Below are positions 8,081-38,367 of a DNA stretch of 64,000 bases, in pieces; within the stretch, counting starts at the first letter, position 1, and the number at the start of each line of letters is the position of its first letter. The stretch comes from Bacteroidales bacterium (GTDB taxonomy: Bacteria > Bacteroidota > Bacteroidia > Bacteroidales > UBA932), in assembly GCA_017395045.1 (NCBI GenBank), contig JAFPWG010000015.1:18146-82145 (forward strand), written 5' to 3'. A model generated the notes under the pieces. That model did no database searches and was not told the DNA's origin. It saw only the letters and a list, made by a program, of their open reading frames with translations. The translations under genes were made by a program, and so were the position numbers.

Positions 8081-8090
8081 AGCAAATCTG

Positions 8091-9092: not shown

Positions 9093-9119
9093 TTTTGTTG
9101 ATGGTATCAGATTATTATG

Positions 9120-9149: not shown

Positions 9150-9431
9150 CCGAACAAGCAAGAATCCACGTTCCCAGTGTGTAGCAACTTGCGTGAAATC
9201 AATTGGCCTGAAGGCGTGACAAGCATTGAGAGGTCGACATTCCTTTATTGTAAGAATCTGACGTCGTTTGATTTTCCGGATGGCCTGGAAAACATTGGGG
9301 CGGAGGCCTTCGAAGGCACTCCGGACCGTTTCAGGGTTTATATCCCGGCAGATTTGGTCGATTCTTACAAGGAAAACTGGGCGTGGGAAACCTATGCCGA
9401 CCGGATCGAAGCCATCCCTGCCGAACCGTAG
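9129..9431 (+). pseudogene. Remnant of a BspA-like leucine-rich-repeat surface protein
   Basis: An open frame of about 100 codons. It encodes [40 protein letters not shown] and [13 protein letters not shown], which are LRR_5/BspA-type repeats with the usual C-terminal IPA...Y.....W segment. There is no ATG ahead of the repeats, no signal peptide, and only about one and a half repeats remain, so this looks like the 3' stub of a much larger gene. It lies on the plus strand between two minus-strand operons and ends 1 base from the convergent GH92 stop. It may mark an old deletion or rearrangement at this boundary. Confidence 0.6.
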
Positions 9432-9432
9432 T

Positions 9433-13136: not shown

Positions 13137-13149
13137 ATCGTTTGTCGTA

Positions 13150-13728: not shown

Positions 13729-13767
13729 ACGAATATACGCATTTTTCGCCACCCAGCCTTAAATAGT

Positions 13768-13808
13768 CTGCAAGCCTTGCGAGAAATCCGACATTGCAAG
13801 CCTTGCAA
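13768..13808. promoter_or_regulatory. Two tandem interrupted palindromes (possible operators)
   Basis: The 135-base divergent intergenic region holds two copies of GCAAGCCTTGC, at 13770-13780 and 13796-13806. Each is an inverted repeat around a single central C. The second copy extends to a perfect 7+1+7 dyad, TTGCAAGCCTTGCAA (13794-13808). The centres are 26 bases apart, about two and a half helical turns. This arrangement is typical of a dimeric repressor or activator bound at two sites between divergent genes. Confidence 0.5.
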
Positions 13809-13863
13809 TCATACCGTCCTTTCCTCTTGCGTTCCCGAACTTTGCGGAAACGAAAAAACGACC

Positions 13864-14592
13864 ATGTTACAATTCAAACCTTATCCTTCCATCGGGAGCC
13901 ATACGGACACGGGATGGATGGCTCTTGTCCGGGCGGCCGAGCCGGCCGAAACGCTTTTCGCCGTGCAGGAGAAAGTGGACGGGGCGAACGTCTCCTTCCT
14001 CTGTGACGATCTGGAGGTCCGGATGGCCCGGCGGACGGCCATCCTGGATCCGCTGGAACCTTTCTTCGGCTTTCAGCAGGTCCTCGAGCGTTACTCGGGG
14101 CACGTCTATCATATCTACAACCGGCTGCGGCTGTCTTATCCGGAAATGACCTCCATCGCGGTCTATGGGGAACTGTTCGGAGGGCATTACCCGCATCCGG
14201 GCGTCGCGCCGGAACCGCAGGACTGGCCCGTGCAAAAGGGCATCTGGTATATCCCCGGGCACGATTTCTATGCCTTCGATATCTATGTCTTCACGAAGGA
14301 CGGTGGCTTTTTTCTGCCTGTTCGGGAGGCGATCGACCTGTTTGCAGCCGCCGGATTCCATTATGCGCACAACCTCTTTACCGGCACGTTGGATGAATGT
14401 CTGGCTTACCCTTGCGATTTCCCGACCACGATCCCTCCGGAATATGGTCTTCCTTCCCTGGAGAACAACCTGTGCGAGGGCATCGTTATCAAGCCGTTGC
14501 GCCCCCTCGTCCTCCCGGATGGCTCCCGCATTGCGGTGAAGGTCAAAAACCCTGCATTTTTATCAGGGAACAATAAAAGTTGCAATATCTGA
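13864..14592 (+). CDS. Rnl2-like RNA ligase, lacking the C-terminal domain
   Basis: A 242-residue ATP-dependent RNA ligase/nucleotidyltransferase of the T4 Rnl2 type. All nucleotidyltransferase motifs are present at T4-like positions: motif I EKVDGAN with Lys37 as the adenylated residue, motif III YGELFGG (101-107), motif IIIa FYAFD (135-139), motif IV EGIVIKP (from Glu205) and motif V VKVKNP (Lys226, Lys228). T4 Rnl2 is 334 residues; the roughly 85-residue C-terminal domain needed for RNA end sealing is absent and the frame stops 14 residues after motif V. A toxin gene starts 20 bases later. The protein may still self-adenylate. Spliced junction residues LSGNNKSCNI look foreign to the family. 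Confidence 0.82.
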   Translation: MLQFKPYPSIGSHTDTGWMALVRAAEPAETLFAVQEKVDGANVSFLCDDLEVRMARRTAILDPLEPFFGFQQVLERYSGHVYHIYNRLRLSYPEMTSIAVYGELFGGHYPHPGVAPEPQDWPVQKGIWYIPGHDFYAFDIYVFTKDGGFFLPVREAIDLFAAAGFHYAHNLFTGTLDECLAYPCDFPTTIPPEYGLPSLENNLCEGIVIKPLRPLVLPDGSRIAVKVKNPAFLSGNNKSCNI

Positions 14593-14610
14593 TAACTTTT
14601 GTTACATTTG
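14580..14610 (+). promoter_or_regulatory. Promoter-like element before the toxin gene
   Basis: TTG (14580-14582), 20 bases, then TACATTTG (14603-14610), a perfect Bacteroidetes -7 box. The -7 box ends only 2 bases before the toxin ATG, so the transcript would be leaderless or nearly so. It overlaps the last codons of the truncated RNA ligase. Confidence 0.4.
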
Positions 14611-14612
14611 CC

Positions 14613-14948
14613 ATGGCAGACAGAAGGATTGTGACATTCGGCGGCTATTTCGAAGCGTTCATTGCTACATTGCCGGAGCGGGTAATTCAAAAGATTGATT
14701 ATGGATTGGTCCTGCTGAAAACCATGGATCGTTTACCCGCCAAACATATGAAGTATATTGAAGACGGGATCTTCGAGTTGAGGACGGAGTTTGAAGGGAA
14801 TATTTACCGGACCTTCTTCATCTTTGAAGGAAATCAAATTGTCGTACTATTCAATGGATTCCAGAAGAAGGGGCAGCGGACACCGAAAAAAGAGATAGAA
14901 AAGGCTAAACGGATCAAGAGGGAATATGATGGAAGAACACGTCAATAA
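14613..14948 (+). CDS. RelE/HigB-like toxin of a type II toxin-antitoxin system
   Basis: A 111-residue basic protein of the RelE/ParE superfamily, phage Gp49/HigB-like branch. Characteristic parts are IVTFGGYFEAFIATL at the N-terminus, YGLVLLKTMDRLP, the core FELRTEFEGNIYRTFFIFEG, and the C-terminal FNGFQKKGQRTPKKEIEKA followed by lysines. Members cleave mRNA on the ribosome. Its 3' end overlaps the antitoxin gene by 23 bases; toxin-first order is the HigBA arrangement. The GC content is visibly lower than in the surrounding glycosidase genes, consistent with acquisition by transfer. Confidence 0.88.
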   Translation: MADRRIVTFGGYFEAFIATLPERVIQKIDYGLVLLKTMDRLPAKHMKYIEDGIFELRTEFEGNIYRTFFIFEGNQIVVLFNGFQKKGQRTPKKEIEKAKRIKREYDGRTRQ

Positions 14949-15243
14949 CGATAAGCTGCGCAGTTATGATGCTGTGCTGGATGCGAAATATGGCCATCCG
15001 GGTTCGCCGGAACGGATCCGGTTTGAAGAAGAAGCCTATTCATTCTATTTCGGACAGGCACTCAGGGATACCCGGAAAGAGGCCAAGGTTACGCAACTGG
15101 AATTGGCCCGTAGAGTAGGGACCTCCAAAAGCTACATTTCCAAGGTGGAACACGGTAACATACTCCCGAGCATCGGGGCCTACTGCAGGCTGCTGAATGC
15201 ACTCGGAAGAGATATCGAGATTGTCAAATTCTCCAGAACTTGA
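14926..15243 (+). CDS. XRE/HTH antitoxin (HigA-like)
   Basis: A 105-residue helix-turn-helix protein. Its HTH_3 domain spans about residues 45-100, with the recognition region TQLELARRVGTSKSYISKVEHG, followed by LPSIGAYCRLLNALG. The N-terminus (ERIRFEEEAYSFYFGQALRDTRKEA) is the form usual for HigA partners of Gp49-type toxins. It would neutralise the toxin and repress the shared promoter. The stop TGA (15241-15243) abuts the stop codon of the convergent GH92 gene with no spacer, so the module fits very tightly into the locus. Confidence 0.88.
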   Translation: MMEEHVNNDKLRSYDAVLDAKYGHPGSPERIRFEEEAYSFYFGQALRDTRKEAKVTQLELARRVGTSKSYISKVEHGNILPSIGAYCRLLNALGRDIEIVKFSRT

Positions 15244-17544
15244 TTACTGCCACTTGATGATTCCGGCGTTCATGAGGGCATCGTGGGAGATCCGGTAGCT
15301 GGAGACCTTGCGGTTGCCGAGGCGGGCTGTGGTACCCTTTGCCGGCCTGGACTTGGCCGCTTTCGTCACCGTCAGGGCCTTTCCGCCGGGCAGGTCGATG
15401 TCCACGCGGTCGAAGACCGGCAGCGTGAGCGTGTAGGACGGATCGCCCGGGCAGTCGGGGTAGAAGCCCATCATCGAGAACACGGCCCAAGCCGACATCG
15501 TACCGGTGTCGTCGTTGCCGGGGATGCCGTTCGGGGCGTTGTGGTAGTGCTTGGCCAGAAGGTCGTGCACCGTGCTCCAGGTACGCCACTGCTCGCCTTT
15601 CACGCGGCTGTACAGGTACGGATAAGCGATGTCCGGCTCGTTGGCGGGGTCGTACAGGCCTTCGTTGAATACCTTGTTCAGAGCCTTCACAAAGGCTTTG
15701 GAGCCGCCCGTGAGCTGGATAAGGCCGTCCACGTCGTGAGGTACATAGAACGTGTAGTTCCAGGCGCTTCCTTCGTGGAAGCCCGGCACGGGCTCGAAGT
15801 TCTCGCCCTGGCGCGGGTTGAAAGGCGTGAGGAAGGTACCATCCTTCTGACGGGGTCGCAGGCAGCCAAATTCGGGGGACCAATATTGCTTGTAGCCCAG
15901 AGAACGCTGGCGGTACTTGTCGGCATCGTCGGGATGACCAAGGACTGTCGCCAGGCGGGCGAGGGCGGCATCGGCCATATAGTATTCCAGAGCGTGGGAC
16001 ACGGAATTGTCCCCCGAAAAGTCCTGGGCGAACCAGCCCAGCGGGATATACCCCCGCTGGATGTACGGATCGATGTCCGGCCGCATCCGGTTCTGCCCGC
16101 CCGGAGTGTCTGCGCTCTTGAGAAAGGCCTCGTAAGCGGTCCGTATGTCAAAGTCAGTCAGCCCTTTCAGGTACGTGTCCGCGATTACCGGGATGGCCGG
16201 GTCGCCTTCCATCGTAAAGGTCTCTCGCCCGTACAGTTCCCATTTGGGCATCCAGCCCCACTCCCGGTACATGGACACCATGGACCGCACCATGTCGATC
16301 TGCTTTTCGGGATAGACGAGAGTCAGGAGCTGGTGCAGGTTCCGGCAGGTGTCCCAGAGGGAGAAGACCGTATAGCGGTGCTGGCCTTCGGGGACGCGGC
16401 CTACTCCGCGTGCGCGCATCTTCAGCTGCGCCTGCCCGTTGCGGCCGGTCGCAATCCTGTTACTGTTCACGGCGGCCGGATTTCCGAACTCCATCAGGGG
16501 ATACTCCCCGTTCACGTCGTCCAGGATATTGGGATGGATGAGGGTATGGTACAGGGCCGTGTAGAAGACGGTTTTCTGCTCCTCGGTGCCGCCGGTCACC
16601 CGGATACGGCCCAGCTGCTCCTGCCAGGAACGCTGTGCCGCAGCGGCGACCTTGTCAAATTCGAACCCTGCCTGCTCCGCCTCCAGGTTCATCCGGGCAT
16701 TGTCGATGCTCACGAAAGATACGCCCACCTGTACGAGGACCTGTTCGCCTTCGGCCAGGTTCTCGAAGCGGAACCAATAGCCGATGTCGTCGCCGGACAG
16801 ATCCCGGGAATAAGCCTCGTACAGCTTGTATCGGCCTGCATCGGCGTCCCAGGCGGCCTCGGCCGACATAGGACGCTGCTTCTTCCAGTAGCCGCTGCGG
16901 TCGGGAGCCTTGCTGACGCGCAGGACGAAGTACATCGGGAACACGGCGTTCCGGTTGTAGCAGAACGTGCCCATCAGTTTGGATCCCTCGATTTCCGTGT
17001 AGGAAACGCGGCGTACGGTGGCCCCGGACTCGTTGGTCAGGCCCTCTCCCAGATTCACGAGGATATTTCCCGCACCGCCCGGGAAGGTGTAGCGCTCCAG
17101 CGAGGTCCGGGTGGTGGCGGTAGCCTCCGTCAGGATGCCGCTTGCCAGCCGGTTGGAATAGTAGCCGGGATGTGCCTGTTCCTCCTCATACTCAACACCA
17201 TACGCATGATAATCGACCTCCAGCGGGCCCGCCGTGGGCATCGTCAGGACAGATCCCAGTTCCGGGCAGCCCACCCCGGACAGGTTCACGTGGGCGTAGC
17301 CGGTGAAATAGCTGTTCTCTTCCACGTACGGCGTGGACCACCAGCGGCTGTCCTTGTCCCACGTGTTCAGGCTGGAGCCCATCACGTTGAAGGGACTGAC
17401 GCTCATCAGCCCGTTCGGCGTCACGGCGCCCGGGTTGCAGGCCCCGAAGTTCGTCGTGCCGATGAACGGGTTCACGTATTCGGTCTGGGCGGAAAGGGAT
17501 AGAGCCAGGAGCGCCGCGCTCACGAAGGTCAGGAGTCTACGCAT
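15244..17544 (-). CDS. GH92 alpha-mannosidase (secreted), copy C
   Basis: A 766-residue GH92 from a third branch of the family. Landmarks are YVNPFIGTTNFGACNPGAV, GYAHVNLSGVGCPELG, FSLWDTCRNLHQLLTLVYPE, EGSAWNYTFYVPHDVDGL and GIPGNDDTGTMSAWAVFSMMGFYPDCPG. The usual GNEPxHH segment is replaced by ANEPDIAYPYLYS, a known variation in a GH92 subgroup. The signal peptide MRRLLTFVSAALLALSLSAQ looks like type I, not a lipoprotein. The start at 17544 is chosen because an upstream in-frame ATG at 17565 lies before the transcription start predicted from the promoter at 17567-17597. It is separated from the SusCD operon by a terminator. Confidence 0.95.
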   Translation of the reverse strand: MRRLLTFVSAALLALSLSAQTEYVNPFIGTTNFGACNPGAVTPNGLMSVSPFNVMGSSLNTWDKDSRWWSTPYVEENSYFTGYAHVNLSGVGCPELGSVLTMPTAGPLEVDYHAYGVEYEEEQAHPGYYSNRLASGILTEATATTRTSLERYTFPGGAGNILVNLGEGLTNESGATVRRVSYTEIEGSKLMGTFCYNRNAVFPMYFVLRVSKAPDRSGYWKKQRPMSAEAAWDADAGRYKLYEAYSRDLSGDDIGYWFRFENLAEGEQVLVQVGVSFVSIDNARMNLEAEQAGFEFDKVAAAAQRSWQEQLGRIRVTGGTEEQKTVFYTALYHTLIHPNILDDVNGEYPLMEFGNPAAVNSNRIATGRNGQAQLKMRARGVGRVPEGQHRYTVFSLWDTCRNLHQLLTLVYPEKQIDMVRSMVSMYREWGWMPKWELYGRETFTMEGDPAIPVIADTYLKGLTDFDIRTAYEAFLKSADTPGGQNRMRPDIDPYIQRGYIPLGWFAQDFSGDNSVSHALEYYMADAALARLATVLGHPDDADKYRQRSLGYKQYWSPEFGCLRPRQKDGTFLTPFNPRQGENFEPVPGFHEGSAWNYTFYVPHDVDGLIQLTGGSKAFVKALNKVFNEGLYDPANEPDIAYPYLYSRVKGEQWRTWSTVHDLLAKHYHNAPNGIPGNDDTGTMSAWAVFSMMGFYPDCPGDPSYTLTLPVFDRVDIDLPGGKALTVTKAAKSRPAKGTTARLGNRKVSSYRISHDALMNAGIIKWQ

Positions 17545-17566
17545 GGAGTCTAGTGTTATCATCATT

Positions 17567-17646: not shown

Positions 17647-20403
17647 CTATTCGCCAGCCGGAAGCTCGCAAATATTACCGTCAAAGTCCACGCGGGCAGC
17701 CTTGAAGGCGTCGCCCAGGGCACGGACCTGGCGGACGGAGGAACCGTCCATCTGGCTCATGGAATCCCAGTCGATGTCGTTGTTGCCGGCGCGGTCGATC
17801 ATGTAGCTGTTGTCCGGCTCATCGGTGAAGCGCCAGTAGCTGAACAGGCCTTCGGAGTCGCTCGGAACGTCGCACAGACCGGCCACGATCTCGGACTGGC
17901 TGCGGGCCACGGTCCACACGCGGACGTAATCGATGAAGCCGTCGAAGAGCTGGCTGGTGCAATAGCCCGTGTCATCCCAGCGCTCGTCCCAGGACATACC
18001 CCACTCGAGACGCTCGAAGTTGAAGGACTGATGGGAATTCATCGCATAGGAGTTGATGAATTCACCGTTGTCGTAGATGCTGATGTTGGTACCGTCCATC
18101 ACGGCGGAGAGGGTGTGCCACATGCCGGCCTCGAAGATGTACGGCGTGCTCTCGCCCTGCTTGGTGACCTGCGGCTCGCTGCCGATCAGGTAGGAAGCGG
18201 AGAGGTGGAGCTGACCCTTGCCGGCGTTGCTGCCGTTGGAGAAACGGAGCATCACGCCGTGCTCGCTGCGGTCCTCGACCGCACCGAGGCGGTTGGGCAT
18301 ACCGGGCTCGTGCCAGCTGTTGGCGTAGAAGTGCCATTCGATGGTGGCGTTGGTCAGCTCGGTCGGGTTTTCGAGCAGCCAGTTCTCGGAGAGTTCCGGG
18401 GTAATCTTGAACACCTTGCCGGTGAGTGTCTCACCGCCGGGCTGAGGACCGGGACCGGGCTGGTCGCCGCTACCCTTCTCGCGGTAGCAGATGCCTTCCA
18501 TACCGGCGTCAGCCAGGGTCTTCCAGGCAGCCGCAGCGGCATCGCCGTTGTCCTTGCGGTTGCCATTGCCGTCCCAGCAGTCGGTGAAATCAAGGCTCTG
18601 GGCCTCGTTCACCGTATTGGCGACATACTTGTCCTCGGCACCGTTGAAGACCCAGTTGGCAGCGAGACCTTCGGCCTTGCCGGCGGGCACTTCGCACAGG
18701 GTGGCGGTGATGTCCTCCACGCTCAGGGCACGGTTCCAGACACGGGCGAAGCCGATGTAGCCGTTGAACGCCTGGGCGAGCGGCCAGTTGCTGCCGTCAT
18801 CCCAAGTCATGGAGATGTCGAAGCGGTTCAGATCCCAGCTGTCAGCCGGGCGGGCATTGTAGGAGGCGATGAGTTCATCGTCGTCATAGACGTGGACCTG
18901 GGTTCCGTCGCTGACGATAGTCATGACAACCCACTCGTTGAGGGGCCATACGTACGGGGCGTCGCCCTTGCGGACCTGCTCCTGGTTCACACCGAAGACA
19001 CCGGCGTTGAGGCACAGCTGACCGTCGGCGTCACCATCGTTGGAGAAGCGGAACAGGACGGACTTGCTTTCGTCGGCATTGGCGAACTCGCCGAGACGGT
19101 TGCTGTACAGGGTACGGCCCTGGGCATCCTTCTCGTTGAACTTGTGGTCGTTCCAGTGCTTGGAGAAGAACTTCACCTGCAGCGTGACATTGCCGGGATT
19201 CACGGAAATCGGGGTGTCCCAGATGAAGGTGGAATTCACCTTATAGTCGGAGATGTCGAACACCTTGTCCCAGCCGGCCGGGGTGTAGGGCTCCATCTCG
19301 GGCTTGGGCTCGGCCTCACCGGCCTTCTGGGCGATGGTGATGGTCTGGAGGACCTCCTCGGTGCCGGCGCGGACGATCTTCACTTCACCGGTACGGATTT
19401 CCTCGGTGGGGTTGTCGTCGACCTTGAGGACGATGGTGTAGTTCTGGGCGCGGGTCTCCACGAAGTGGATCCAGTCCACCTGCGGCTTCACCTCGAAAGC
19501 GAGGTTGGAGACGGCATGGGCTTCCACGACGGCGTCCTTCGCCTCGGCGATGTACTCGATGCTCTCGTCCGTGATCTCGAAGGTGTCGGGCTCGGCTTCA
19601 CCGCCGAAGGTGAGCTTGACGATGGAGGTCAGGCCGACCTGGGAGTCGGCATAGGCCAGGGCGGAACCCTTGACGACGGCGAGCGGGGTGACGGTGATCT
19701 TTTCGGCGTCGACCGTAGCGTCATAGTTGGCGTCGGTGAACACGTCCACGACGGTATTCGCGGTCTTGTTCTCCACGGTGTAGGGAATCTCGAACGGATT
19801 GGTGCTGGTCACGGCATACTGGGTCTTCGCGATGACGAGCTTGAAGGCCTTCGCGAAGGGAATCTCGATGGTACTGTTGTCGTCCAGGGTGAGGACCACA
19901 GCCTTGTCGGTGACCTTGATATCCTTGAAGATGGCATCGCCGAGGCCGCCGCCCATGGCGCCGACATCGGTCTTCTTGCCATCCACGGTGACGAACAGGT
20001 GACCGTTCTCCACGGAGAAGGACGGGGTCTGGCCCACAGGGAGATCCTTGCCGTCGACCTGGATGATCTGGCCGTTCAGCGCCCAGCAGAGAACGCCGGC
20101 GGAGTTGCGGACGACGGAGAGGTTGGTCTCGGCGCCGGCACCGGCGATTTCGAAGGTCACGACCTGGCCGGTCGTGTAGGTGACGGTCACACCGACGACC
20201 TTTCCGTCCTTGGTGAGTTCCTCGACCTTCTGGACGAACATGCCGTCGTTGGTCGCGCTCTGGATGGCCTTCATGTTGGCCTCCAGGTTGCCCACCTTGG
20301 TCTCGAGCGTGGTGACCCGGTTGCGCAGCTCGGAGTCGTCATACTCCCGGGCGCACCCCACGAGGAGGAGCCCCAGTGCGAAAGCAGTAAATAACTTTTT
20401 CAT
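17647..20403 (-). CDS. Surface glycan-binding lipoprotein (DUF4988, BACON-like and two LamG-like domains)
   Basis: A lipoprotein of about 918 residues with signal MKKLFTAFALGLLLVGC. After Cys17 comes a heptad-rich stretch (DDSELRNRVTTLETKVGNLEANMKAIQ) like the start of DUF4988 proteins, then beta-rich repeats, then a BACON/Ig-like segment (about 290-365, WIHFVETRAQNYTIVLKVDDN). Two concanavalin/LamG-type domains follow (about 375-590 and 630-850), separated by a Gly/Pro linker (GSGDQPGPGPQPGGE). No catalytic residues are evident. It is the last gene of the SusCD operon and probably binds the N-glycan or glycoprotein at the cell surface. The first ATG (20424) is possible but the MKK start at 20403 fits the signal better. 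Confidence 0.85.
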   Translation of the reverse strand: MKKLFTAFALGLLLVGCAREYDDSELRNRVTTLETKVGNLEANMKAIQSATNDGMFVQKVEELTKDGKVVGVTVTYTTGQVVTFEIAGAGAETNLSVVRNSAGVLCWALNGQIIQVDGKDLPVGQTPSFSVENGHLFVTVDGKKTDVGAMGGGLGDAIFKDIKVTDKAVVLTLDDNSTIEIPFAKAFKLVIAKTQYAVTSTNPFEIPYTVENKTANTVVDVFTDANYDATVDAEKITVTPLAVVKGSALAYADSQVGLTSIVKLTFGGEAEPDTFEITDESIEYIAEAKDAVVEAHAVSNLAFEVKPQVDWIHFVETRAQNYTIVLKVDDNPTEEIRTGEVKIVRAGTEEVLQTITIAQKAGEAEPKPEMEPYTPAGWDKVFDISDYKVNSTFIWDTPISVNPGNVTLQVKFFSKHWNDHKFNEKDAQGRTLYSNRLGEFANADESKSVLFRFSNDGDADGQLCLNAGVFGVNQEQVRKGDAPYVWPLNEWVVMTIVSDGTQVHVYDDDELIASYNARPADSWDLNRFDISMTWDDGSNWPLAQAFNGYIGFARVWNRALSVEDITATLCEVPAGKAEGLAANWVFNGAEDKYVANTVNEAQSLDFTDCWDGNGNRKDNGDAAAAAWKTLADAGMEGICYREKGSGDQPGPGPQPGGETLTGKVFKITPELSENWLLENPTELTNATIEWHFYANSWHEPGMPNRLGAVEDRSEHGVMLRFSNGSNAGKGQLHLSASYLIGSEPQVTKQGESTPYIFEAGMWHTLSAVMDGTNISIYDNGEFINSYAMNSHQSFNFERLEWGMSWDERWDDTGYCTSQLFDGFIDYVRVWTVARSQSEIVAGLCDVPSDSEGLFSYWRFTDEPDNSYMIDRAGNNDIDWDSMSQMDGSSVRQVRALGDAFKAARVDFDGNICELPAGE

Positions 20404-20424
20404 GGAATTATCAGTTTTGTTCAT

Positions 20425-21666
20425 TTATTGTGCACACTTGTTCTTTTCGTCCTTGACCCAGACGATGGAGGCCCCGGCTTCGGGGGTGGTTACGTAGTCG
20501 GATTCGTTCTTCTGGCGCTCGGACTTGTCCCAGTCCATGTCGTTGCCGGCGACGGAATCGTGGAAGATGTGGCCTTCGCCTTCGTTCATCTTCCAGTAGC
20601 CGACGAGGCCCTCGGACTTGGGATCCACCGAACACTGCGTGGAGGCGATGTCGCTGGCGCTGCGGGCAATGTTCCAGATGCGCATCTCGGCCATGCGGCC
20701 GGTGTAGCTCTGGGAAGAACCGTAGCCACCCCAGGACATGCCGATCTCGAAGCGGTTCAGGTTGAAAGCCTGGTTGCCGGAGACGGAATTCTCGGTGGGG
20801 GTGTCCTTCTCGCCGTTGATGTAGACGCTCATGTTGGAGCCGTCCCAGACGATGGAGATCATGTACCACTGGTTCTGCTCGAAGGAGCCGGTGGCCGGGT
20901 CGCCGGTGGAACCGGTGACGTAACGGCCGGAGGGCGCCACGATGTCCAGGGTCTTCCAAGGCTTGCCGTTCTCGTTGAAGCGGAGCAGCACCTGGCCGCC
21001 GCCGTCTTCGTTCCAGCAGCAGAACCGGCACAGCTGGTCGTTGCCGCGGGACTTCATGTTGTACGGATGGGCCTTGATCTCGAGGGTCCAGGTGTTCAGG
21101 CTGTAACCGGCGCCGAGGCTGTGCGTGGAGTATACGCCGATGCCCGGGATGTCCAGGGAGAAGGTCTCCATGGTCTTTCCGATCTTGATGAACAGGTTCT
21201 TGGAGGCGTCCAGGATATCGGCCTTGCCACCGTCCATATAGGCGACGGCGAGCGGAATCACGTAGTTGACGCCTTCCTGGATGAACGAGTTGTCACGCAG
21301 GGTGACGGAGGTCATCGGGGAGGTCGCGGTTCCCTTCTTGATGGTGACGAATTCGTCGTTGATCACGAAGGTGTTGCGCGGGACGGCGGCGTAGTTCGTC
21401 TTGTTCACGGCGTTGTAACGGACGACGGCCAGGCTGTCATAGGCGATATGGACCTGGACGTCCTCTTGGGCGACGCCCGTCAGGGAGACGGAGAAGTTGT
21501 AGGAGATCGGAATCTCGTCCGCCAGGATCTGGTCCTTGGAAATCGGCGAGGCGTCGGTTCCGGTGATGATGGCGATCTCCTGGCCATAGTCGAAATGGTC
21601 GGCCTTCTGGGTGCACGCGGCGAGGCAAAGGGCCGCGGCGGAAAGGAGTAAAATATACTTTTTCAT
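20425..21666 (-). CDS. DUF1735 + LamG-like surface lipoprotein
   Basis: A 413-residue lipoprotein with signal MKKYILLLSAAALCLAAC. The N-terminal half (about 25-165) has the DUF1735 pattern: YNFSVSLTG, a strand with VRYNAVNKTNYAAVP, and FIQEGVNYVIPLAV. The C-terminal half (about 170-395) is a LamG/concanavalin-like lectin fold: WYMISIVWDGSNMSVYINGE, then MAEMRIWNIARSASDI and GLVGYWKMNEGEGHIF. It lies 21 bases upstream of the second glycan-binding gene and 10 bases after GH18. DUF1735 proteins commonly accompany GH18-containing SusCD loci for host glycoprotein use, so glycan binding is the likely role. Confidence 0.88.
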   Translation of the reverse strand: MKKYILLLSAAALCLAACTQKADHFDYGQEIAIITGTDASPISKDQILADEIPISYNFSVSLTGVAQEDVQVHIAYDSLAVVRYNAVNKTNYAAVPRNTFVINDEFVTIKKGTATSPMTSVTLRDNSFIQEGVNYVIPLAVAYMDGGKADILDASKNLFIKIGKTMETFSLDIPGIGVYSTHSLGAGYSLNTWTLEIKAHPYNMKSRGNDQLCRFCCWNEDGGGQVLLRFNENGKPWKTLDIVAPSGRYVTGSTGDPATGSFEQNQWYMISIVWDGSNMSVYINGEKDTPTENSVSGNQAFNLNRFEIGMSWGGYGSSQSYTGRMAEMRIWNIARSASDIASTQCSVDPKSEGLVGYWKMNEGEGHIFHDSVAGNDMDWDKSERQKNESDYVTTPEAGASIVWVKDEKNKCAQ

Positions 21667-21676: not shown

Positions 21677-22813
21677 TTACTTGGCAGGGTTCACGATCTG
21701 GATGGCGCGGCGAAGGAAGGCGTAATTCTGGTAGTTGCCGGAATAGCCCTTCTTCTGGAGCGCGTCCACGCCGTTGTCATAGTCGTTGTCGATGTAGTAG
21801 GCACCAAAGCCGCCTTCACCGTTGCTGGCTTCGTTGGCATAGCGGGCATAGTGCTCCAGGGTGTACATCTTCGCGCCGCCCTCGGTGGTCATCGAGGTAG
21901 GGTAGCCGCCGTTGAGGTAGTTCGGGCCGTCCCCGGAGGACTGCTCGTACTGCTCGCAGTAGACCATCTTGGATTCGGGGCACCAGCCGGGGCCGCCGAC
22001 ACCGGAACCCTGCATGGAGTAGGCCTGTTTCACGAGATAGTCGATGTAGGGCTCGACATTGGCGTCGGGATAGCCGCCGAAGTAGTCGATGATCAGGAGC
22101 TTGGAAGGGTCGGAACCCTTCGGGCCGAAATACTTGCCCACTTCGTCGATGACCCAGAAAATCTGCTGGGAACCCCAGCCTTCATAGTCGAAGTCCACGC
22201 CGTCCAGGCCATGGGTGTTCACGATGTCCACCACGAGACGGCCGTAAGCGCGGATGCTTTCCTCGTTGCCGCCCTCCACCTTCCAGTACTTGCCGTCCAG
22301 TTCGAACTCCTGGCCATAGTGGGAGGCGTCGGCGTGCATCACGAAACGGGTACCCTTCACTTTCTGGCAGTACTCAAGGTCCGCATAGGCGTTCGGGGAA
22401 TAATCATAGGTGTGCATCGGGGCGCGCTCGATCTCGCCGGTTTCGGGGTTCTTCACGTTGCCGTAGAAGCAGGCGTCGGTGTACTCCTCCTTCATGGGCG
22501 TGCCCATCCAGAGGTTCACGATGTCCAGCGAATCCGGCAGGGCCATCAGGCGCGGGCGCATCGTCTTGTATTCGATGAAGAGGCTGGTCGCGCCTTCCGG
22601 CGGGGCCCAGCGGGCAAAGTACACGTAGGAGATGGTGTGCTTGGACTCCTTCCACGCGCGGAGATCCTGGTAGTAGGGATCCTGCGCGTCCTTTTCGAGG
22701 TCGTACGTGTTGAAATGCTGGATTTCAAGCTTCTCCACCTTGGTGTCGCAGCTCTGGACCGCAAGAAGGGCCAGGGCGACAGGGATTATGCTCAGTATCT
22801 TTTTCATTTTCAC
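21677..22813 (-). CDS. GH18 endo-beta-N-acetylglucosaminidase (lipoprotein)
   Basis: A 378-residue GH18 protein. The catalytic DxxDxDxE signature is intact as LDGVDFDYEG, with Asp204, Asp207, Asp209 and the acid Glu211. Endo-beta-N-acetylglucosaminidases of this type (EndoF/EndoH-like, BT3987-like) cut the chitobiose core and release N-glycans from glycoproteins. The signal MKMKKILSIIPVALALLAVQSC gives a lipoprotein, presumably surface exposed. It lies between SusD (6-base gap) and the DUF1735 lipoprotein. Many GH18-like proteins in such operons are catalytically dead binders; this one is not, by motif. Confidence 0.92.
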   Translation of the reverse strand: MKMKKILSIIPVALALLAVQSCDTKVEKLEIQHFNTYDLEKDAQDPYYQDLRAWKESKHTISYVYFARWAPPEGATSLFIEYKTMRPRLMALPDSLDIVNLWMGTPMKEEYTDACFYGNVKNPETGEIERAPMHTYDYSPNAYADLEYCQKVKGTRFVMHADASHYGQEFELDGKYWKVEGGNEESIRAYGRLVVDIVNTHGLDGVDFDYEGWGSQQIFWVIDEVGKYFGPKGSDPSKLLIIDYFGGYPDANVEPYIDYLVKQAYSMQGSGVGGPGWCPESKMVYCEQYEQSSGDGPNYLNGGYPTSMTTEGGAKMYTLEHYARYANEASNGEGGFGAYYIDNDYDNGVDALQKKGYSGNYQNYAFLRRAIQIVNPAK

Positions 22814-22819: not shown

Positions 22820-24403
22820 TTAATTGTTGAACGGCTTGGCATCCCACCACAGGCGCACGCCTGCGTTGTCCACACCACCGAGGGCCTCGACGCCGGAGGC
22901 ATAGCCTTCGGGGTTGTCGGTCTGCTCGGAGACGGGGTAGGGGACGCGGCGGATGCCCTGGTCGGTATTCACGATTCCGTTGGAGAAGTTGTTCGCCGGG
23001 GCGATCAGGACCGGGTAATGGAGGCGGCGGTATTCCGCCCAGGCCTCGGCGCTGTTCGGGAACAGGGCGATCCATTTCTGGGTGGCGATCTTCTCAAGCT
23101 TCTGCTCGTCGGAATCACCGTTGTTCCAGGCGATCGTGACGGTGGAAGGAGCGTTGGCATGGGCACGGGCAACGTTGTCGCGGAAAGCGGCCGGCTGGGC
23201 CGTCTTGTTCGCGATGTAGTTGGCGGCGCCGTCGGCGCCCCACTCTTCGAAGGAGAGCTTGATGCCCTGCTCATAGAACTCCTGGGCAGTACCGCCCATG
23301 TTCCAGCCCTTCAGGGCGCCCTCGGCGCGGAGGAAGGCCACTTCGGCGGCGTTCAGCCAGCAGATCTTGTAGTTCCCGGCGTTCGGGGCGGAGACCTTCG
23401 CGGCGGTGTTCTTGTAGTTGGTCCAACTGGACGGGGAGATGCCCGGACGCACGCCGTGGAGCTTGCCGTCACCGGCGGGTTTGGCAATCAGGAACATGCG
23501 GGGATCGTTGAAGCCGTTCAGGTAGGCGTCCATGGAAGCGCCCATCTGGGTGTCGGCATCGTTGAAATCCACGTTGATGGCATAGATCGGATGGCGGACG
23601 CCGCTCTCGGAGATGACGGCGTTGCCGCTGTTGCTCTCGATGACGCCGAAGGGGCTGGCGAGGGATTTCTCGGCCTCCTCACGGGCGAGGGAAGGGTCGG
23701 CGTAACTCACGCGGAGGGCGAGGCGAAGACGCAGCGAATTGGCGAACTGGACCCATTTGACGGCGTCGCCGCCATAGACGAGGTCGTAGTCCTCGAGGAG
23801 CTTGGCTCCGGAGGCCGCCACTTTCTCAAGGATGTCGATGGACTCGTCGAGTTCGTCGAAGAACTGGAGGTAGACCTGGTCGAGCGGATCGTAGAGGTTG
23901 GAGAGGTCGCCTGTGTGGGAGTAGGCGATAGGGCCGTAATAGTCGGCCACCTGGTGCATCGAGGCCACTTTCAGGACCTTGGCGAGCGCCAGTTCATTCT
24001 CCATCCCGTATTCAAGGGCGGACTTCTCGAAGTTGGTGTAACCGCCCATAGCGTACTGGTACTTGACGGTGAACATGCGGCGATGCCAGCCGTCGTTCAC
24101 GTCCCAGCCGGCGTTGTGGCCGTCCCAGCCGGTAGGGGCCAGGTAGCCGCACCAGGTCTCGGCGCACAGGTTGTACATGATCTGGTAGTCGGAGTCCAGG
24201 TAAGTACCGTGCCGGTAGATGATGACGGAACGTTCGAGCTGCTGGAGCATGCCGCCGAGGGCGAGACCGTCCTGGGCCATCTGCTCGTCGCTGACGCCGA
24301 ACTGATTCTTGCTGATTTCCTCGAAATGCTTGGTGCAGCCTGCCAGGACGGCAATCGTCGCGGCCGCTGCAGTAAAGAGCTTAAAGATATTCTTCATTTT
24401 CAT
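22820..24403 (-). CDS. SusD/RagB family outer-membrane lipoprotein
   Basis: A 527-residue SusD homologue (SusD-like_2 type), the lid of the outer-membrane glycan transporter. The lipobox is LAGC with Cys23. SusD features include NQFGVSDEQMAQDGLALGGML near the N-terminus, tetratricopeptide-like helices (ALAKVLKVASMHQVADYYGPI, VKWVQFANSLRLRLALRVSY), the AEVAFLRAEGALKGW segment, and the C-terminal WIALFPNSAEAWAEYRRLHYP. It lies 11 bases downstream of the SusC-OmpA gene, the normal SusC-SusD order. Confidence 0.95.
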   Translation of the reverse strand: MKMKNIFKLFTAAAATIAVLAGCTKHFEEISKNQFGVSDEQMAQDGLALGGMLQQLERSVIIYRHGTYLDSDYQIMYNLCAETWCGYLAPTGWDGHNAGWDVNDGWHRRMFTVKYQYAMGGYTNFEKSALEYGMENELALAKVLKVASMHQVADYYGPIAYSHTGDLSNLYDPLDQVYLQFFDELDESIDILEKVAASGAKLLEDYDLVYGGDAVKWVQFANSLRLRLALRVSYADPSLAREEAEKSLASPFGVIESNSGNAVISESGVRHPIYAINVDFNDADTQMGASMDAYLNGFNDPRMFLIAKPAGDGKLHGVRPGISPSSWTNYKNTAAKVSAPNAGNYKICWLNAAEVAFLRAEGALKGWNMGGTAQEFYEQGIKLSFEEWGADGAANYIANKTAQPAAFRDNVARAHANAPSTVTIAWNNGDSDEQKLEKIATQKWIALFPNSAEAWAEYRRLHYPVLIAPANNFSNGIVNTDQGIRRVPYPVSEQTDNPEGYASGVEALGGVDNAGVRLWWDAKPFNN

Positions 24404-24414: not shown

Positions 24415-27400
24415 TTATTTGACGATACAGACTGCGACACGGTTGGATTCAGGGCTCTGGGAAGCATCGCGGTCTCCGGCGACGGAGGCACGGGAGATGC
24501 GGTCCCGAGAGATGCCGGCATTCACGAGCATTTCCACGACCTTGAGGGCGCGCTGCTCGGAGAGTTCACGGTTGATCTCGTCGGTGCCGGTGCCGCTGTC
24601 GGCATAACCGGTGACGGTGATCTTCGCATCCGGGTTCTCGACGAGGACCTGGCAGATGCGGCCCAGCTTGAAGGCCTCTTCCGGACGGATTTCAGCCTTG
24701 CCGATCAGGAAGAAGAGATCGTCCTCGTAGGAATCGACCGGCGATCCCGTGGGGACTTTGACTTCCTTCACGACTTCCTTGACCACTTCCTTCTCCACGA
24801 CTTTCTCCACGACCTTCTCGACCACCTTGGGTTCGGAAGGAATGTAGACGGGAGCGCTTGCGGTCGGAGCGGCCTTGGAGGCGGTGCTGCCTCCGAAGTG
24901 GAGCTTCACGGCAAAGCCGAGGCTCCGGGTGGAAGGCTGCATGAAGTAGTCGACACCCTGGTTATAGGTGCCCACGTTGGAAGTCATCTCAGGATCGAAC
25001 GGAGCCTTGAGGTACAGCATGGCGAGGTTGTTGCCCACCACGGAGAGGGTGATTCCCTTGACCCAGGAACCGAGTTTCTTGACCGGGAGGTCATAGTTGA
25101 GGGAGAGTTCGGCGAGACGGGCGTTCGTGGCGGAATAGACATACTGGCTCATGATGCCGTGGCGGATGCCGAGGGTCTGGTAGTACCCCTGGACGTCGGA
25201 AGTCTTCATTCCGTTGAATTCGAAATACCCCTTCTCGCGGGCGTCGGCGGTATCCTGGGACACACCGTAGTAGTCGAGGATAGCCTGCGTCTTGGAGATG
25301 GCGATACCGCCCAGTCGGGCCGTGAACAACCAGTTCAGGGTGAGGCCGTTCCAGCCGAGGTGACCGCCCCAGGAGAGACGGTGCTTGGCATCGGTGGTGC
25401 CGGCGTAGATCATGTCTTTCTCGTCATAGTCGGCGATGATCATGCCGTCGGCGTTGAGGCGGTAGAAGCCGTGTTCGTCGGTGGCGATGGTGGTCACATA
25501 GACATCACCCAGGGTGCCGCCTTCGTACAGGAAGTTGTTCAGGCCGCCGAACCCGCCCATGGGCATTCCGTTGGCGCTGCTGGTCGTTCCTTTCTCCGGA
25601 TCCGTGAACTTGAGGTCCACGATCCTGTTCTTGTTCCAGGTCCAGGTAAGGTAGGTGCCGTAGTTCCACTTGCCGCGGTTGTCGTCGAAGCGGAGGGACA
25701 TCTCGATACCGGTGTTGTCCACGCGGCCGCCGTTCAGGTACATGTCCGTGTTGAGGGAAGTGGTGGTAATACGGGGATCGAAGAACTGGTTGAAGGTCTT
25801 CGCGTAGTAGTAAGTCGCATCGATCTGCAGCTTGCTGTCGAAGAAATGGATGTTCGTACCCAGTTCCCAGGACTTCGTGCGTTCGGGGACGAGCTTAGTA
25901 TTGCGGCGGCGGGCGCTGGTCGCAACGTTGCCGCTCACCTGCTCGTGGCGGGGATCCAGCAGGAACAGGGCCGGATCCGGGGCGTTACCCACCTCGGAGT
26001 AGGAGCCGCGGATCTTCCAGTAGGGGAAGAAGGAGCTCTTAAGACCCGGGAGGAGTTCGGTGACGATGCCGGAAAGGCCGATGGTCGGATAGGTGATGCC
26101 GCCGGCCGTCCAAAGGGCGGAATTCCAGTCCACCCGGTAGGTCATGTCCAGATAGACCTTGCTGCGATAGCCCAACTGGGCGTTCGCGAACACGGACTGG
26201 TTCTGGTAGCGGTAACCTGCCGAGGAAAGCAGCGTAGGGGAACTGTTCTGGTCGATGTTGGTGTAGTCGAACTTGTTGTTGACGCTCTTCAGCGGACCGG
26301 AGACGTTGTCGGTCCGGAAGGTGATGTCGTCGATGTTGGCACCCATCACGCCGGTGAGGTTGAACACGTTGTCGCCGAAGTACTTGTTGAAGGTGGCGAG
26401 GACTTCGCCGAACTTCTGCTCGGTGTACTGGTTCACACGGCCGTAGAAGCCGTGCTTGGAACCTTCGGTGAAGAGGGTGTTGGTGGAAGCGTCGAACTTG
26501 CGCTCCTGGACTTCATCCGTGCGGTCGTACTTGGCGCGGGCGCTCAGGGTCAGCCACTTGACAGGCTTGTAGGAGAGCTGTCCGGAACCCATCAGGCGGT
26601 TCTTCTGGTTCTGCCACTTCTGGTGCTCGGTGATCCAGTAGGGATTCTGCATCGAGTGCTCGAAGTCGTAGGGCCAGTACTGGGTCTTGATGTTGCGGCC
26701 GGCGTCATAACGCTCGTACACGCCCACCTTGGAGAAGTCGTCTCCCGCCGGGAACAGATACACCGGGACGATCGGGTTGCCGTATTCGCCCTGGGCGATC
26801 ATGTTCTGCTCGTTCACGCGGCCGTAGGTCATGTTCACATCCATCGTGAGGACGTCCTTCACCAGGTCGGTGGTGTTGCGGAAGGAGAGGTTGTAGCGGC
26901 CCACGTTGTTGTTGTGGACGATACCGCGGGCATTCGCGACGGCGGCGGAGACATAGGTCTGGCTGCGTTCCGTACCCGTGGACAGGGAGAGGGAGTTCAC
27001 CTCGTTCACACCCGTCTGGAAGAAATCGCGCGGGTTGTAGGTGGACGGGGTGTCCAGCTTCGCGCCCCAGCTGTAGTAGGAACCGGGGGAGGAAGGACCG
27101 TAGGTGTTCTGGAACTGCGGCATCACGTACGCACGGGAGAAGGTGGTGGAGTTCGAGTAGTCGATGTCCAGCCGGTCCTTGCCGCCCTTCTTGGTGGTGA
27201 TGATGATGACACCGTTCGCTGCATTGGCGCCGTACAGGGCCGCCGCGGACGGACCGGAGAGGACGGAGATCGACTCGATGTCGTCCTGGTTCAGGGAACC
27301 GAGCACGTCACCGGTCTGGCCGGCGCCGGCATAGACGCCCTCGGGCTGGGCGCCGCGCAGGGACTGCATCGGGATACCGTCGATCACATACAACGCATTG

Positions 27401-27948
27401 TTGTTGTTGGAGATGGACTTGGAACCGCGCATCACGATACGGGATGCGCCGCCCGCGCCCGTGGAGGATTGGCTGATGGAGACACCCGCCACCTTGCCGT
27501 TCAGGCCGTTGACGAAGGAACCCACCGGGCTGACCGTCTCCACTTTGGCCTGCTGGACATTGTAGGAGAGGGATTTTTCCTCCTTGCGGATACCCATGGC
27601 CGTGACGACGGTCGCGTTGAGCGCGATGTTGTCCGACGCCAGGGTGACATCGATGACCGAACGGCCTCCGATCTGTTCAACGGCGTCTTTCTGGCCGATG
27701 TAGGAGAAGCGCAGGGCCTGTGCCGATGCCGGGACGGTAATGCTGTAGCGACCGTCCAGGTCGGTGATGGCACCTGTCGAGCTGTCCCCCTCCACGACGA
27801 CGCTGGCGCCGATGAGCGGTTCACCGTAGTCATCCGTGACGGTACCCGTGATGGTCCGGTTCTGGGCCAGGGCGGGGCCGCCTGCGATGAACAGTCCCAG
27901 TAAGGCCATGACGGCCCATTCCAGGACTTTCTTAAGTTGAAAACTCAT
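24415..27948 (-). CDS. SusC/RagA TonB-dependent transporter fused to a C-terminal OmpA domain
   Basis: A 1177-residue outer-membrane transporter. Residues about 1-29 are a signal peptide, 31-115 a carboxypeptidase-regulatory-like domain (TITGTVTDDYGEPLIGASVVV), and about 120-235 the plug (ALYVIDGIPM, SISVLSGPSAAALYGANAANGVIIITTK); the barrel ends at about residue 1018 with RSLGFAVKLHF. Instead of stopping there, the protein continues for 159 residues: a Pro/Ala linker, a Lys/Val/Glu repeat (about 1039-1065) and an OmpA/peptidoglycan-binding domain (about 1074-1177). That domain includes ITVTGYADSGTG with Asp1117 and LSEQRALKVV with Arg1133, the residues that bind diaminopimelate in OmpA. The fusion would tether the transporter to peptidoglycan. 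No frameshift is visible at the junction. Confidence 0.95.
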   Translation of the reverse strand: MSFQLKKVLEWAVMALLGLFIAGGPALAQNRTITGTVTDDYGEPLIGASVVVEGDSSTGAITDLDGRYSITVPASAQALRFSYIGQKDAVEQIGGRSVIDVTLASDNIALNATVVTAMGIRKEEKSLSYNVQQAKVETVSPVGSFVNGLNGKVAGVSISQSSTGAGGASRIVMRGSKSISNNNNALYVIDGIPMQSLRGAQPEGVYAGAGQTGDVLGSLNQDDIESISVLSGPSAAALYGANAANGVIIITTKKGGKDRLDIDYSNSTTFSRAYVMPQFQNTYGPSSPGSYYSWGAKLDTPSTYNPRDFFQTGVNEVNSLSLSTGTERSQTYVSAAVANARGIVHNNNVGRYNLSFRNTTDLVKDVLTMDVNMTYGRVNEQNMIAQGEYGNPIVPVYLFPAGDDFSKVGVYERYDAGRNIKTQYWPYDFEHSMQNPYWITEHQKWQNQKNRLMGSGQLSYKPVKWLTLSARAKYDRTDEVQERKFDASTNTLFTEGSKHGFYGRVNQYTEQKFGEVLATFNKYFGDNVFNLTGVMGANIDDITFRTDNVSGPLKSVNNKFDYTNIDQNSSPTLLSSAGYRYQNQSVFANAQLGYRSKVYLDMTYRVDWNSALWTAGGITYPTIGLSGIVTELLPGLKSSFFPYWKIRGSYSEVGNAPDPALFLLDPRHEQVSGNVATSARRRNTKLVPERTKSWELGTNIHFFDSKLQIDATYYYAKTFNQFFDPRITTTSLNTDMYLNGGRVDNTGIEMSLRFDDNRGKWNYGTYLTWTWNKNRIVDLKFTDPEKGTTSSANGMPMGGFGGLNNFLYEGGTLGDVYVTTIATDEHGFYRLNADGMIIADYDEKDMIYAGTTDAKHRLSWGGHLGWNGLTLNWLFTARLGGIAISKTQAILDYYGVSQDTADAREKGYFEFNGMKTSDVQGYYQTLGIRHGIMSQYVYSATNARLAELSLNYDLPVKKLGSWVKGITLSVVGNNLAMLYLKAPFDPEMTSNVGTYNQGVDYFMQPSTRSLGFAVKLHFGGSTASKAAPTASAPVYIPSEPKVVEKVVEKVVEKEVVKEVVKEVKVPTGSPVDSYEDDLFFLIGKAEIRPEEAFKLGRICQVLVENPDAKITVTGYADSGTGTDEINRELSEQRALKVVEMLVNAGISRDRISRASVAGDRDASQSPESNRVAVCIVK
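24756..24834 (-). repeat. Low-complexity Lys/Val/Glu linker repeat inside the SusC-OmpA gene
   Basis: About 26 codons encode alternating KVVEKVVEK and EVVKEVVKEV units, giving a short DNA repeat. Similar charged linkers join the barrel and peptidoglycan-binding domains in Bacteroidota OmpA proteins, where they span the periplasm. Confidence 0.75.
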
Positions 27949-36145: not shown

Positions 36146-36165
36146 TACAGTTAATCCATTGAATC

Positions 36166-38367
36166 ATGCCGAAAAGAAGAAAGGACCATGGTGGAAGGGC
36201 TGCCATGGGGAGGTCGAGAAAGCAGAAGAAAACCAGAATCATTCCCGAATACGAAGGGACGGCCATGATGTCCCGGGAAGGATTCGTGTTCGTCCGTATC
36301 GAAGGACAGGATGAAGACGTTTATGTGAAGGCTTCGAAGACCCGGGGTGCACTGCACGGGGACACCGTCCGCGTAGCGGTGACCCAGGAGAAGGAGGGGC
36401 CGGCGAAGCGTCGCAGCGGCGAGATCATCGCCATCGTCGAACGTTCGAAGAAACCCTTCGTGGGCATCCTCCACATCGTCGGGAAGCAGGCCTGGGTGCT
36501 GATGTCTTCCAAGACGATGCCCTATGACATTTCCGTTCCCATCCCGGAAGGCGGCAAGCGCGGCATGAAGGTCGCGGCTGTCGTGGACGAATGGCCGCGG
36601 GGCGAGACCGGGCCCGTCGGTCATGTCGTGGACATCCTGGGCATGCCCGGCGAGAACGACACCGAGATGCATGCCATCCTGGCGGAGTTCGGCCTTCCTT
36701 ACCGGTTCGAAAAGGCGGTGGAGAACGCTGCCGACGAGATATCCGACGTCATTACGGACAAGGACCGCGCTGGCCGTAAGGACTTCCGCAAGGTCCTTAC
36801 TTTCACCATCGACCCGGCCGATGCCAAGGACTACGACGACGCCCTGTCGTTCCGGAAGCTGGACAACGGCAACTACGAGGTGGGCATCCACATCGCCGAC
36901 GTATCCTATTACGTGAAACCCGGGACTCCGGTGGATGCCGAGGCGCAGGCCCGCGGCACCTCCGTGTACCTCGTGGACCGTACCGTGCCCATGCTGCCGG
37001 AGAAACTCTCCAACAAGCTCTGTTCCCTTCGTCCGAATGAAGAGAAACTTACCTTCTCCGCCGTGTTCGAGGTCACTCCGCTGGCCAAGGTCATCCATCC
37101 CTGGTTCGGCCGGACGGAAATCATCTCCGACTACCGGTTCTCCTATGAACTGGCCCAGGAAATCATCGACGCCGGGGACGAGGCGATGGCCGGGCAGTTC
37201 GGGGAAGGGTCCGAATGCGGCATCGTTCCGGACGAGGTGAAGGAAGCCGTCCTCACGCTGAACAAACTGGCCCTGAAGCTGCGCAAGAAGCGTTTCGCCG
37301 CCGGTGCGGTGAGCTTCGACCGGCCCGAGATGAAGGTGGATATCGACGAAAACGGCAAGCCGGTCGGCGTGCACCAGAAGTTCTCCAAGGAAGCCAACTG
37401 GCTCATCGAGGAGTTCATGCTCCTGGCGAACAAGTCCGTGGCGGAATTCGTCGCCTCGGACGGAAAGATGGGCGGGAAGGCGGTCAAGAACCCGAAGACG
37501 TTCGTCTATCGTGTCCACGACGAACCCAACCTGGAGAAAGTTACGGGCCTCCGCGAATTCGCCGGCAACCTGGGTTACAAGATGGGGCCGATCGGAAGCG
37601 GAAAGGACATCGCCCTGTCGCTGAACAACCTCCTGGCGGACGTCAAGGAAAAACCCGAGCTCGGCGCCATCCAGATCCTCGCCCTGAGGTCCATGGCCAA
37701 GGCCTGCTACAGCACCGACAATATCGGCCATTACGGCCTGGCTTTCAGGTTCTATACGCACTTTACGTCCCCGATCCGGCGCTACCCGGACCTGATGGTC
37801 CACCGCCTCCTCGCCCTGTATCTGAAGGGTGCCGAATCCCAGTCCCTGGATTACTACACCGCCCAGTGCAAGCATGCCTCCGAGAGGGAGGTCATCGCGG
37901 CCGAAGCCGAGCGTGAAAGCATCAAATACAAGCTGGTTGAATTCATGGAAGACAAGGTGGGCCAGGAATTCGACGGCCACGTGTCCGGCGTCACCCAGTG
38001 GGGTATCTACGTGGAGATCGAGCCCACCAAGATCGAGGGCATGATTCCGTACCGGACCATCAAGTCCGAATTCTACGACTTCGACGAAGACCACTACCGC
38101 GCCGTTGGCCGCCGTCACCATTCCTTCATCAAGCTCGGCGATCCGCTCCGCATCCGCGTAAAGGGCACGAACCTGGAGCAGAAACTCCTGGACTATGAAC
38201 TGGTGGAGCCGGAAATGGAGAATGCGCCGGAACTGTCTGAAAGCGACTATCTCGAATCCCTCACCGACGCTCCGGTGCCCAACCGTCCCCGCAAACCCGC
38301 CAGGGCACCCCGGAAGGGAGCCCTGAAGGCCGAACGGGAACGGATGAAAAAAGGCCGTCGTTCCTAA
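36166..38367 (+). CDS. rnr: Ribonuclease R
   Basis: A 733-residue 3'-to-5' exoribonuclease of the RNB family. It has a short basic N-terminus and cold-shock-like domains (about 35-170). The catalytic RNB domain begins around residue 205 with TIDPADAKDYDDALS; the metal-binding aspartates are Asp216, Asp222, Asp224 and Asp225. Further RNB motifs are HIADVSYYV, SVYLVDRTVPMLPEKLSN and YTHFTSPIRRYPDLMVHR. An S1 domain lies at about 600-685 (DGHVSGVTQWGIYVEI), followed by a basic Pro/Arg/Lys-rich tail. RNase R degrades structured RNA. It stands alone, divergent from the GH3 operon. Confidence 0.97.
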   Translation: MPKRRKDHGGRAAMGRSRKQKKTRIIPEYEGTAMMSREGFVFVRIEGQDEDVYVKASKTRGALHGDTVRVAVTQEKEGPAKRRSGEIIAIVERSKKPFVGILHIVGKQAWVLMSSKTMPYDISVPIPEGGKRGMKVAAVVDEWPRGETGPVGHVVDILGMPGENDTEMHAILAEFGLPYRFEKAVENAADEISDVITDKDRAGRKDFRKVLTFTIDPADAKDYDDALSFRKLDNGNYEVGIHIADVSYYVKPGTPVDAEAQARGTSVYLVDRTVPMLPEKLSNKLCSLRPNEEKLTFSAVFEVTPLAKVIHPWFGRTEIISDYRFSYELAQEIIDAGDEAMAGQFGEGSECGIVPDEVKEAVLTLNKLALKLRKKRFAAGAVSFDRPEMKVDIDENGKPVGVHQKFSKEANWLIEEFMLLANKSVAEFVASDGKMGGKAVKNPKTFVYRVHDEPNLEKVTGLREFAGNLGYKMGPIGSGKDIALSLNNLLADVKEKPELGAIQILALRSMAKACYSTDNIGHYGLAFRFYTHFTSPIRRYPDLMVHRLLALYLKGAESQSLDYYTAQCKHASEREVIAAEAERESIKYKLVEFMEDKVGQEFDGHVSGVTQWGIYVEIEPTKIEGMIPYRTIKSEFYDFDEDHYRAVGRRHHSFIKLGDPLRIRVKGTNLEQKLLDYELVEPEMENAPELSESDYLESLTDAPVPNRPRKPARAPRKGALKAERERMKKGRRS

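Follow-up and report, generated by a model that had tools for sequence, protein, structure and literature searches.

Architecture of the fusion gene

The window, a 64,000-nucleotide (nt) stretch of contig JAFPWG010000015.1 (assembly GCA_017395045.1) from a Bacteroidales bacterium, carries on its minus strand a gene in which a complete SusC/RagA transporter is followed by a linker and an OmpA-like domain, together called the tail. The gene and its parts, in amino acids (aa) where residues are given, are as follows.

24415..27948, minus strand: susC-ompA fusion gene, a single uninterrupted open reading frame (ORF) of 1177 aa (TIGR04056 and PF00691)
24895..27858, minus strand: transporter part (SusC/RagA), residues 31-1018, made up of CarboxypepD-like extension, plug and barrel, up to the Phe that closes the last strand (TIGR04056; motif SLGFAVKLHFGG at 1009)
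24724..24894, minus strand: linker, residues 1019-1075, its Val/Glu/Lys repeats starting at 1041
24418..24723, minus strand: OmpA-like domain, residues 1076-1177 (PF00691 at 1078-1160; invariant positions in A3)
24598-24600 and 24550-24552, minus strand: codons of Asp1117 and Arg1133, within the OmpA-like domain
24415..24825, minus strand: exchanged module, approximate extent (part of the linker, OmpA domain, stop), by DNA similarity to the tail of locus L055, spanning -410 to +4 relative to the stop; the L055 barrel is unrelated

The SusC part matches the NCBIfam profile TIGR04056 over its whole length (positions 1-981 of 981; 592 bits, cut-off 368) and contains the TIGR04057 signature (58.2 bits against 46.2), with Pfam matches to CarbopepD_reg_2 (32-114) and Plug (131-246). 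The last barrel strand closes with the terminal Phe of SLGFAVKLHF, and 158 residues lie beyond position 1018-1019, so that the protein lacks the usual, though not defining, SusC end at the last barrel strand. The linker motif KVVEKVVEK starts at residue 1041, and the PF00691 match scores 55.8 bits (cut-off 27.2). The domain possesses Asp1117 (in GYAD) and Arg1133 (in SEQR), which we take to be the residues that hold diaminopimelate. The sequence-only reading had described a SusC barrel complete to about residue 1018, a Lys/Val/Glu linker and an OmpA-like domain with its key Asp and Arg, and the profile matches bear out all three. Its statement that normal SusCs end at the last barrel strand also agrees with the same genome, where 21 of the 23 untailed Plug proteins listed (of 29) end in Phe and two smaller ones in Ile or Leu.

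Both termini of a TonB-dependent transporter are on the periplasmic side, placing the tail on the wall side. By sequence matching, the closest solved chain to the tail is 9uu2_A, a 'Major outer membrane protein' (E 1.4e-13), followed by several OmpA/Pal domains, with weak matches to MotB and PorE models. A type IX secretion C-terminal signal was considered and is not supported: the tail matches OmpA models, and no such signal family is among the Pfam or NCBIfam matches.

Recurrence in the genome and among relatives

The sequence-only reading had proposed a search for such fusions in Bacteroidales genomes, and the fusion does recur. Within the window's genome, 5/34 Plug-domain proteins bear an OmpA tail (the window gene and L053-L056, with Plug and OmpA matches in one frame), each followed by a SusD-type gene. 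Enzyme content varies among the tailed loci, L055 having GH28-like and uronate genes (identified by eye), indicating that the tail is not bound to one substrate. At L056:2981-13019, the tailed pair has a second SusC/SusD pair, without a tail, immediately upstream.

Tail searches were extended from genus to phylum and are blind to fusions with unlike tails. OmpA frames longer than 900 aa were present in 6 of 31 genus genomes, and among 200 genus genomes the tail profile A2 matched 32 at 1e-30, 23 of these with a frame 1000 aa long or longer. Among the matches listed for 299 family genomes, 21 in 10 genomes have frames of at least 1000 aa, restricted to two genera, and one further tail match is interrupted by a contig end. 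Across 393 order genomes, the fused A2-type tail was found in the window's own genome only, four others being stand-alone proteins of 371-390 aa. Among the matches listed for 27 phylum genomes there is one other OmpA frame above 1000 aa (2410 aa).

A scan of named genomes found 293 relatives, and 80 loci were kept. Their titles give a ruminant host for 37 (29 stomach chamber, 4 cecum, 4 with no organ) and no host for 17; 26/80 are RUG isolates, presumably of rumen origin. Tailed SusCs occur in some gut bacteria, many from ruminant stomachs. Five tail-rich relatives carry C-terminal tails on 9/45, 6/40, 6/23, 5/38 and 4/22 of their Plug matches, counts in which three tailed proteins stand outside the Plug matches listed, their barrel being seen separately in the orthologue comparison. 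TIGR04056 is above its cut-off in all 17 tailed proteins scanned, and 74/81 tail ORFs from the 80 named loci exceed 850 aa. A lipoprotein-type gene lies -16 to 30 nt downstream in 72/72 tailed genes with enough downstream sequence, 66 of them linked to SusD by BLAST. Chance or a chimeric contig is ruled out by the four further SusC-OmpA genes in the genome, the many independent assemblies and the conserved flanks.

Two contigs of genome G812 (C49 and C62; loci L227 and L228) hold identical tailed window-type SusC genes, a recent duplication or an assembly duplicate. Three short tail frames (G812:C69, G195:C53 and G181:C9) sit at contig ends and are uninformative on orphan tail cassettes.

Gain and loss of the tail

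Three barrels have both tailed and untailed orthologues. The L055 barrel has an orthologue in 85/200 genomes; among the frames listed, eight are tail-sized (1229-1290 aa) and most others measure 1070-1100 aa. Orthologues of the L056 barrel include four of tail size (1081-1090 aa), most others at 900-940 aa, and one of 1467 aa. Orthologue trees built from selected rows need seven changes for 7/23 tailed members, three for 4/12 and two for 17/21, of which well-supported branches force at least five, two and two, respectively.

Nine comparisons of tailed and untailed loci reveal barrel DNA that is alike up to the tail and susD DNA that is alike after it. Similarity resumes at the stop in G020/G752, G794/G028 and G743/G741 (the L056 barrel) and 12-69 nt past it in the other six, the delay arising because the start of susD differs. 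The untailed G028 gene is placed among tailed genes and its end keeps FG...VK, indicating that it lost its tail, and G752 probably lost its tail as well. At the susC end of the G752 locus (L210), after the apparent loss, the frame enters the susD start and the stop overlaps the susD ATG region. As judged from these trees and alignments, the tail is both gained and lost. Downstream of 28 untailed genes, no convincing tail relic was found (best E 0.51).

The tail as an exchangeable module

At 40% identity, the barrels of the 79 tailed proteins compared (77 distinct) form 14 groups. Median tail identity is 67.9-68.2% where barrels are less than 35% identical, 73.1% for barrels at 70-90% and 85.8% above 90% (19 pairs from different genomes), a pattern indicating that tail and barrel are linked over short times and nearly unlinked beyond. 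DNA was compared in 11 chosen pairs, ten with barrels less than 40% identical at the protein level and an eleventh with barrels 55% identical. In the ten, tail DNA is 73-90% identical over a stretch that opens at about -315 to -425 and closes between -10 and +42 nt relative to the stop. The clearest pair, L155/L164, is 90.1% identical over 414 nt with zero similarity outside. The eleventh pair has DNA similarity reaching further upstream. These comparisons show the tail behaving as a separable module of ~410 nt, present in many unrelated barrel groups and inserted after the codon of the terminal Phe, ahead of the stop.

Synonymous divergence (dS) was compared between tail and barrel in 24 close orthologue pairs, the tail value being more than 1.5 times the barrel value in four and less than two thirds of it in three. 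The four include window/L116 (barrel 0.103, tail 0.458) and L135/L142 (barrel 0.056, tail 0.568). Swaps are thus occasional, with ordinary inheritance as the background.

The tail evolves under constraint. Of 90 distinct tailed SusCs, 89 retain the Asp and all 90 retain the Arg. The ratio of nonsynonymous to synonymous divergence (dN/dS) in nine pairs is 0.21-0.47 in the tail, higher than the 0.08-0.27 of the barrel, and these ratios indicate that purifying selection maintains the tail.

Other tail types and origins

Differently linked tails occur on SusCs that are all TIGR04056 members. L054, in the window's genome, has an Ala/Lys/Glu helical linker and clusters with stand-alone porin-type OmpA proteins, while the tails of G012 (L093-L095), G020 and G027 (L096 and L099) have coiled-coil-like linkers. 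The OmpA-domain tree needs three changes, and zero bootstrap trees have one, with well-supported branches forcing only one; several tail origins are likely from this tree, which does not force them. A mirror-image fusion lies at L239:1694-5398 (G805:C5), where a SusC ending at its terminal Phe has an N-terminal OmpA-like domain and Lys/Pro/Glu linker. The Arg is kept in that domain, and Ser replaces the Asp.

The locus around the window gene

Downstream of the fusion gene, four genes follow on the same strand.

22820..24403, minus strand: gene for the SusD partner lipoprotein, 11 nt past the susC-ompA stop (PF12741, E 1.1e-161)
21677..22813, minus strand: GH18-type endo-beta-N-acetylglucosaminidase-like gene with a DxxDxDxE motif, read in translation (PF23916, PF16141)
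20425..21666, minus strand: surface glycan-binding protein-like gene (BT_3987-like N domain, laminin-G)
17647..20424, minus strand: lipoprotein-like gene with DUF4988, BACON and two laminin-G domains

The surroundings further include three GH92 genes, GH125, GH2 and GH3 genes and a fucosidase-type gene. Passages of PMC11180146 describe high-mannose N-glycan loci of Bacteroides thetaiotaomicron that resemble this locus, a likeness suggesting that N-glycan pieces are probably the cargo of the window importer. Positions 2509-17565 hold, on one strand, the three GH92 genes, the one GH125 gene, a mannose-6-phosphate isomerase-like gene and a ROK gene, the composition of a high-mannose N-glycan locus. 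Elsewhere in the window, 36151-38121 and 38503-39426 encode proteins of 656 and 307 aa with zero Pfam matches at 1e-5, and 39708-42938 encodes a 1076-aa protein uniting 2Fe-2S, pyridine nucleotide-disulphide, BFD, 4Fe-4S and FAD oxidoreductase domains.

Comparison with known systems

The window protein resembles SusC/RagA transporters (TIGR04056) with their SusD in its complete extension, plug and barrel and in the susD gene 11 nt downstream, but extends 158 residues past the last strand, whereas the untailed SusCs compared have either nothing or no more than about a dozen residues after the terminal Phe. The order of barrel, linker and OmpA domain is that of OmpA/OprF-type porins, and the genus' own porin-like proteins, about 370-470 aa long, have related domains and similar linkers. 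Where OmpA/OprF-type porins have a small barrel, the window protein has that of a TonB-dependent importer of the 22-strand class, complete with plug; the eight-strand N-terminal OmpA barrel is absent from the window protein, whose N-terminal part is SusC. Pal and YiaD-type OmpA lipoproteins share the wall-binding domain family, their solved chains 1oap, 2hqs and 2k1s matching the window tail, but are lipid-anchored and have no barrel.

The OmpM stalked porins of diderm Firmicutes, as portrayed in passages of PMC10628300, are likewise single polypeptides that serve as both nutrient pore and wall anchor, with a stalk that is a triple coiled coil. They combine an N-terminal SLH domain with a passive trimeric porin, whereas the window protein combines a C-terminal OmpA domain with an energised SusCD importer. 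No SLH family is among the Pfam matches of the window protein.

Probable function of the tail

The best reading, which we consider probable, is that the tail is a peptidoglycan anchor worn by some SusCD importers and absent from others. Predicted binding of the domain to peptidoglycan is well supported, given its PF00691 homology, its match to 9uu2_A and the conservation of Asp and Arg; from this we infer that the importer would be anchored and would benefit. The barrel would assemble with its usual last strand, leaving a spacer and an OmpA-type domain as its periplasmic C-terminus; the E. coli OmpA barrel likewise assembles with a domain behind it. The spacer would extend to the wall, where Asp1117 and Arg1133 would grip diaminopimelate. 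SusCs dimerise with two SusDs, so two legs per complex would be expected. Such an importer would be retained on the cell, less mobile and less often lost in vesicles, and would provide an additional link between outer membrane and wall. The sequence-only reading had offered three roles for such a tether, namely holding SusCD complexes in position, bracing the TonB-pulled barrel and coupling uptake sites to wall growth, any of which the tail may serve. We count in favour of anchoring the coiled-coil-like spacers of the differently linked tails. Passages of PMC6222051 describe a B. thetaiotaomicron porin with a peptidoglycan-binding domain that is kept in the membrane and out of vesicles, some SusC-like proteins being found in both. 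Taken with OmpM, in which, according to passages of PMC10628300, a single protein serves as pore and tether, this precedent points to anchoring and retention on the cell.

Several observations weigh against a maintained wall anchor. The free-standing OmpA proteins of the window's genome could tether instead, the coiled-coil-type G020 tail has Asn in place of Asp, and the losses in G028 and probably G752 indicate that the tail is not essential. Because tails were gathered by likeness to known ones, part of their high mutual identity reflects how they were selected, and most of the 24 close orthologue pairs have a tail as old as the barrel. Homogenisation within genomes is unsupported, median tail identities being 68.2% within and 67.9% between genomes for barrels less than 35% identical.

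Going beyond anchoring as such, the tail may be a recombining address tag, by whose gain and loss a lineage sets, importer by importer, which SusCD complexes are wall-locked and which are mobile or vesicle-bound. We offer this extension tentatively; if true, the N-terminal OmpA-like domain of the G805 SusC would be a convergent second solution to the same need.

The main rival, which we regard as doubtful, makes envelope strength the tail's chief job, with abundant inducible SusCs doubling as membrane-wall tethers and transport unaffected. The tail's presence on at least 14 barrel groups, in loci of varied enzyme content, does not look substrate-specific, and OmpM (PMC10628300, in the passages above) offers a protein of this kind; yet free-standing OmpA-family proteins already exist in the window's genome and in the tailed relatives examined, and many genus genomes are tail-free (168/200 without a match at 1e-30). 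It is less likely still that the domain no longer binds the wall and instead engages a partner in the periplasm (TonB/ExbD or a hydrolase) or, within the dimer, the other SusC. OmpA-like folds are known in motor and secretion proteins, the window domain matches MotB and PorE models weakly, and helical spacers could pair within the dimer, but retention of Asp in 89/90 and Arg in 90/90 would be needless for a domain without wall binding.

A freeloading module, spread by recombination and of little function where it lands, would explain the patchy gains and losses and the module edges at the linker and the stop. We consider it improbable in view of the tail dN/dS of 0.21-0.47, the 74/81 tail ORFs open beyond 850 aa, the conserved Asp and Arg and a tail that is always at the periplasmic end of a SusC. 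An assembly or frameshift artefact at the junction, which the sequence-only reading had named as grounds for refutation, is refuted for practical purposes: although the genomes involved all appear to be metagenome assemblies, the ORF is uninterrupted, four further fusions exist in the genome, and the same junction recurs across many independent assemblies with conserved flanks.

Significance

Beyond what the sequence-only reading had proposed, these comparisons identify the tail as a module that recurs on unrelated importers and is both gained and lost. A description of a SusC-OmpA fusion was not found in a literature search that covered few subscription papers, so that an earlier mention may exist. 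Swapping of a periplasmic module among unrelated importers would be an unusual way for the outer membrane to evolve. A barrel whose end-of-barrel signal is now internal also offers a test of how barrels assemble in Bacteroidota. Matched orthologues that differ in the presence of the predicted wall-binding tail, alongside the same SusD, make the effect of anchoring directly testable, bearing on how SusCD importers are placed and held under TonB pull and why some stay while others enter vesicles.

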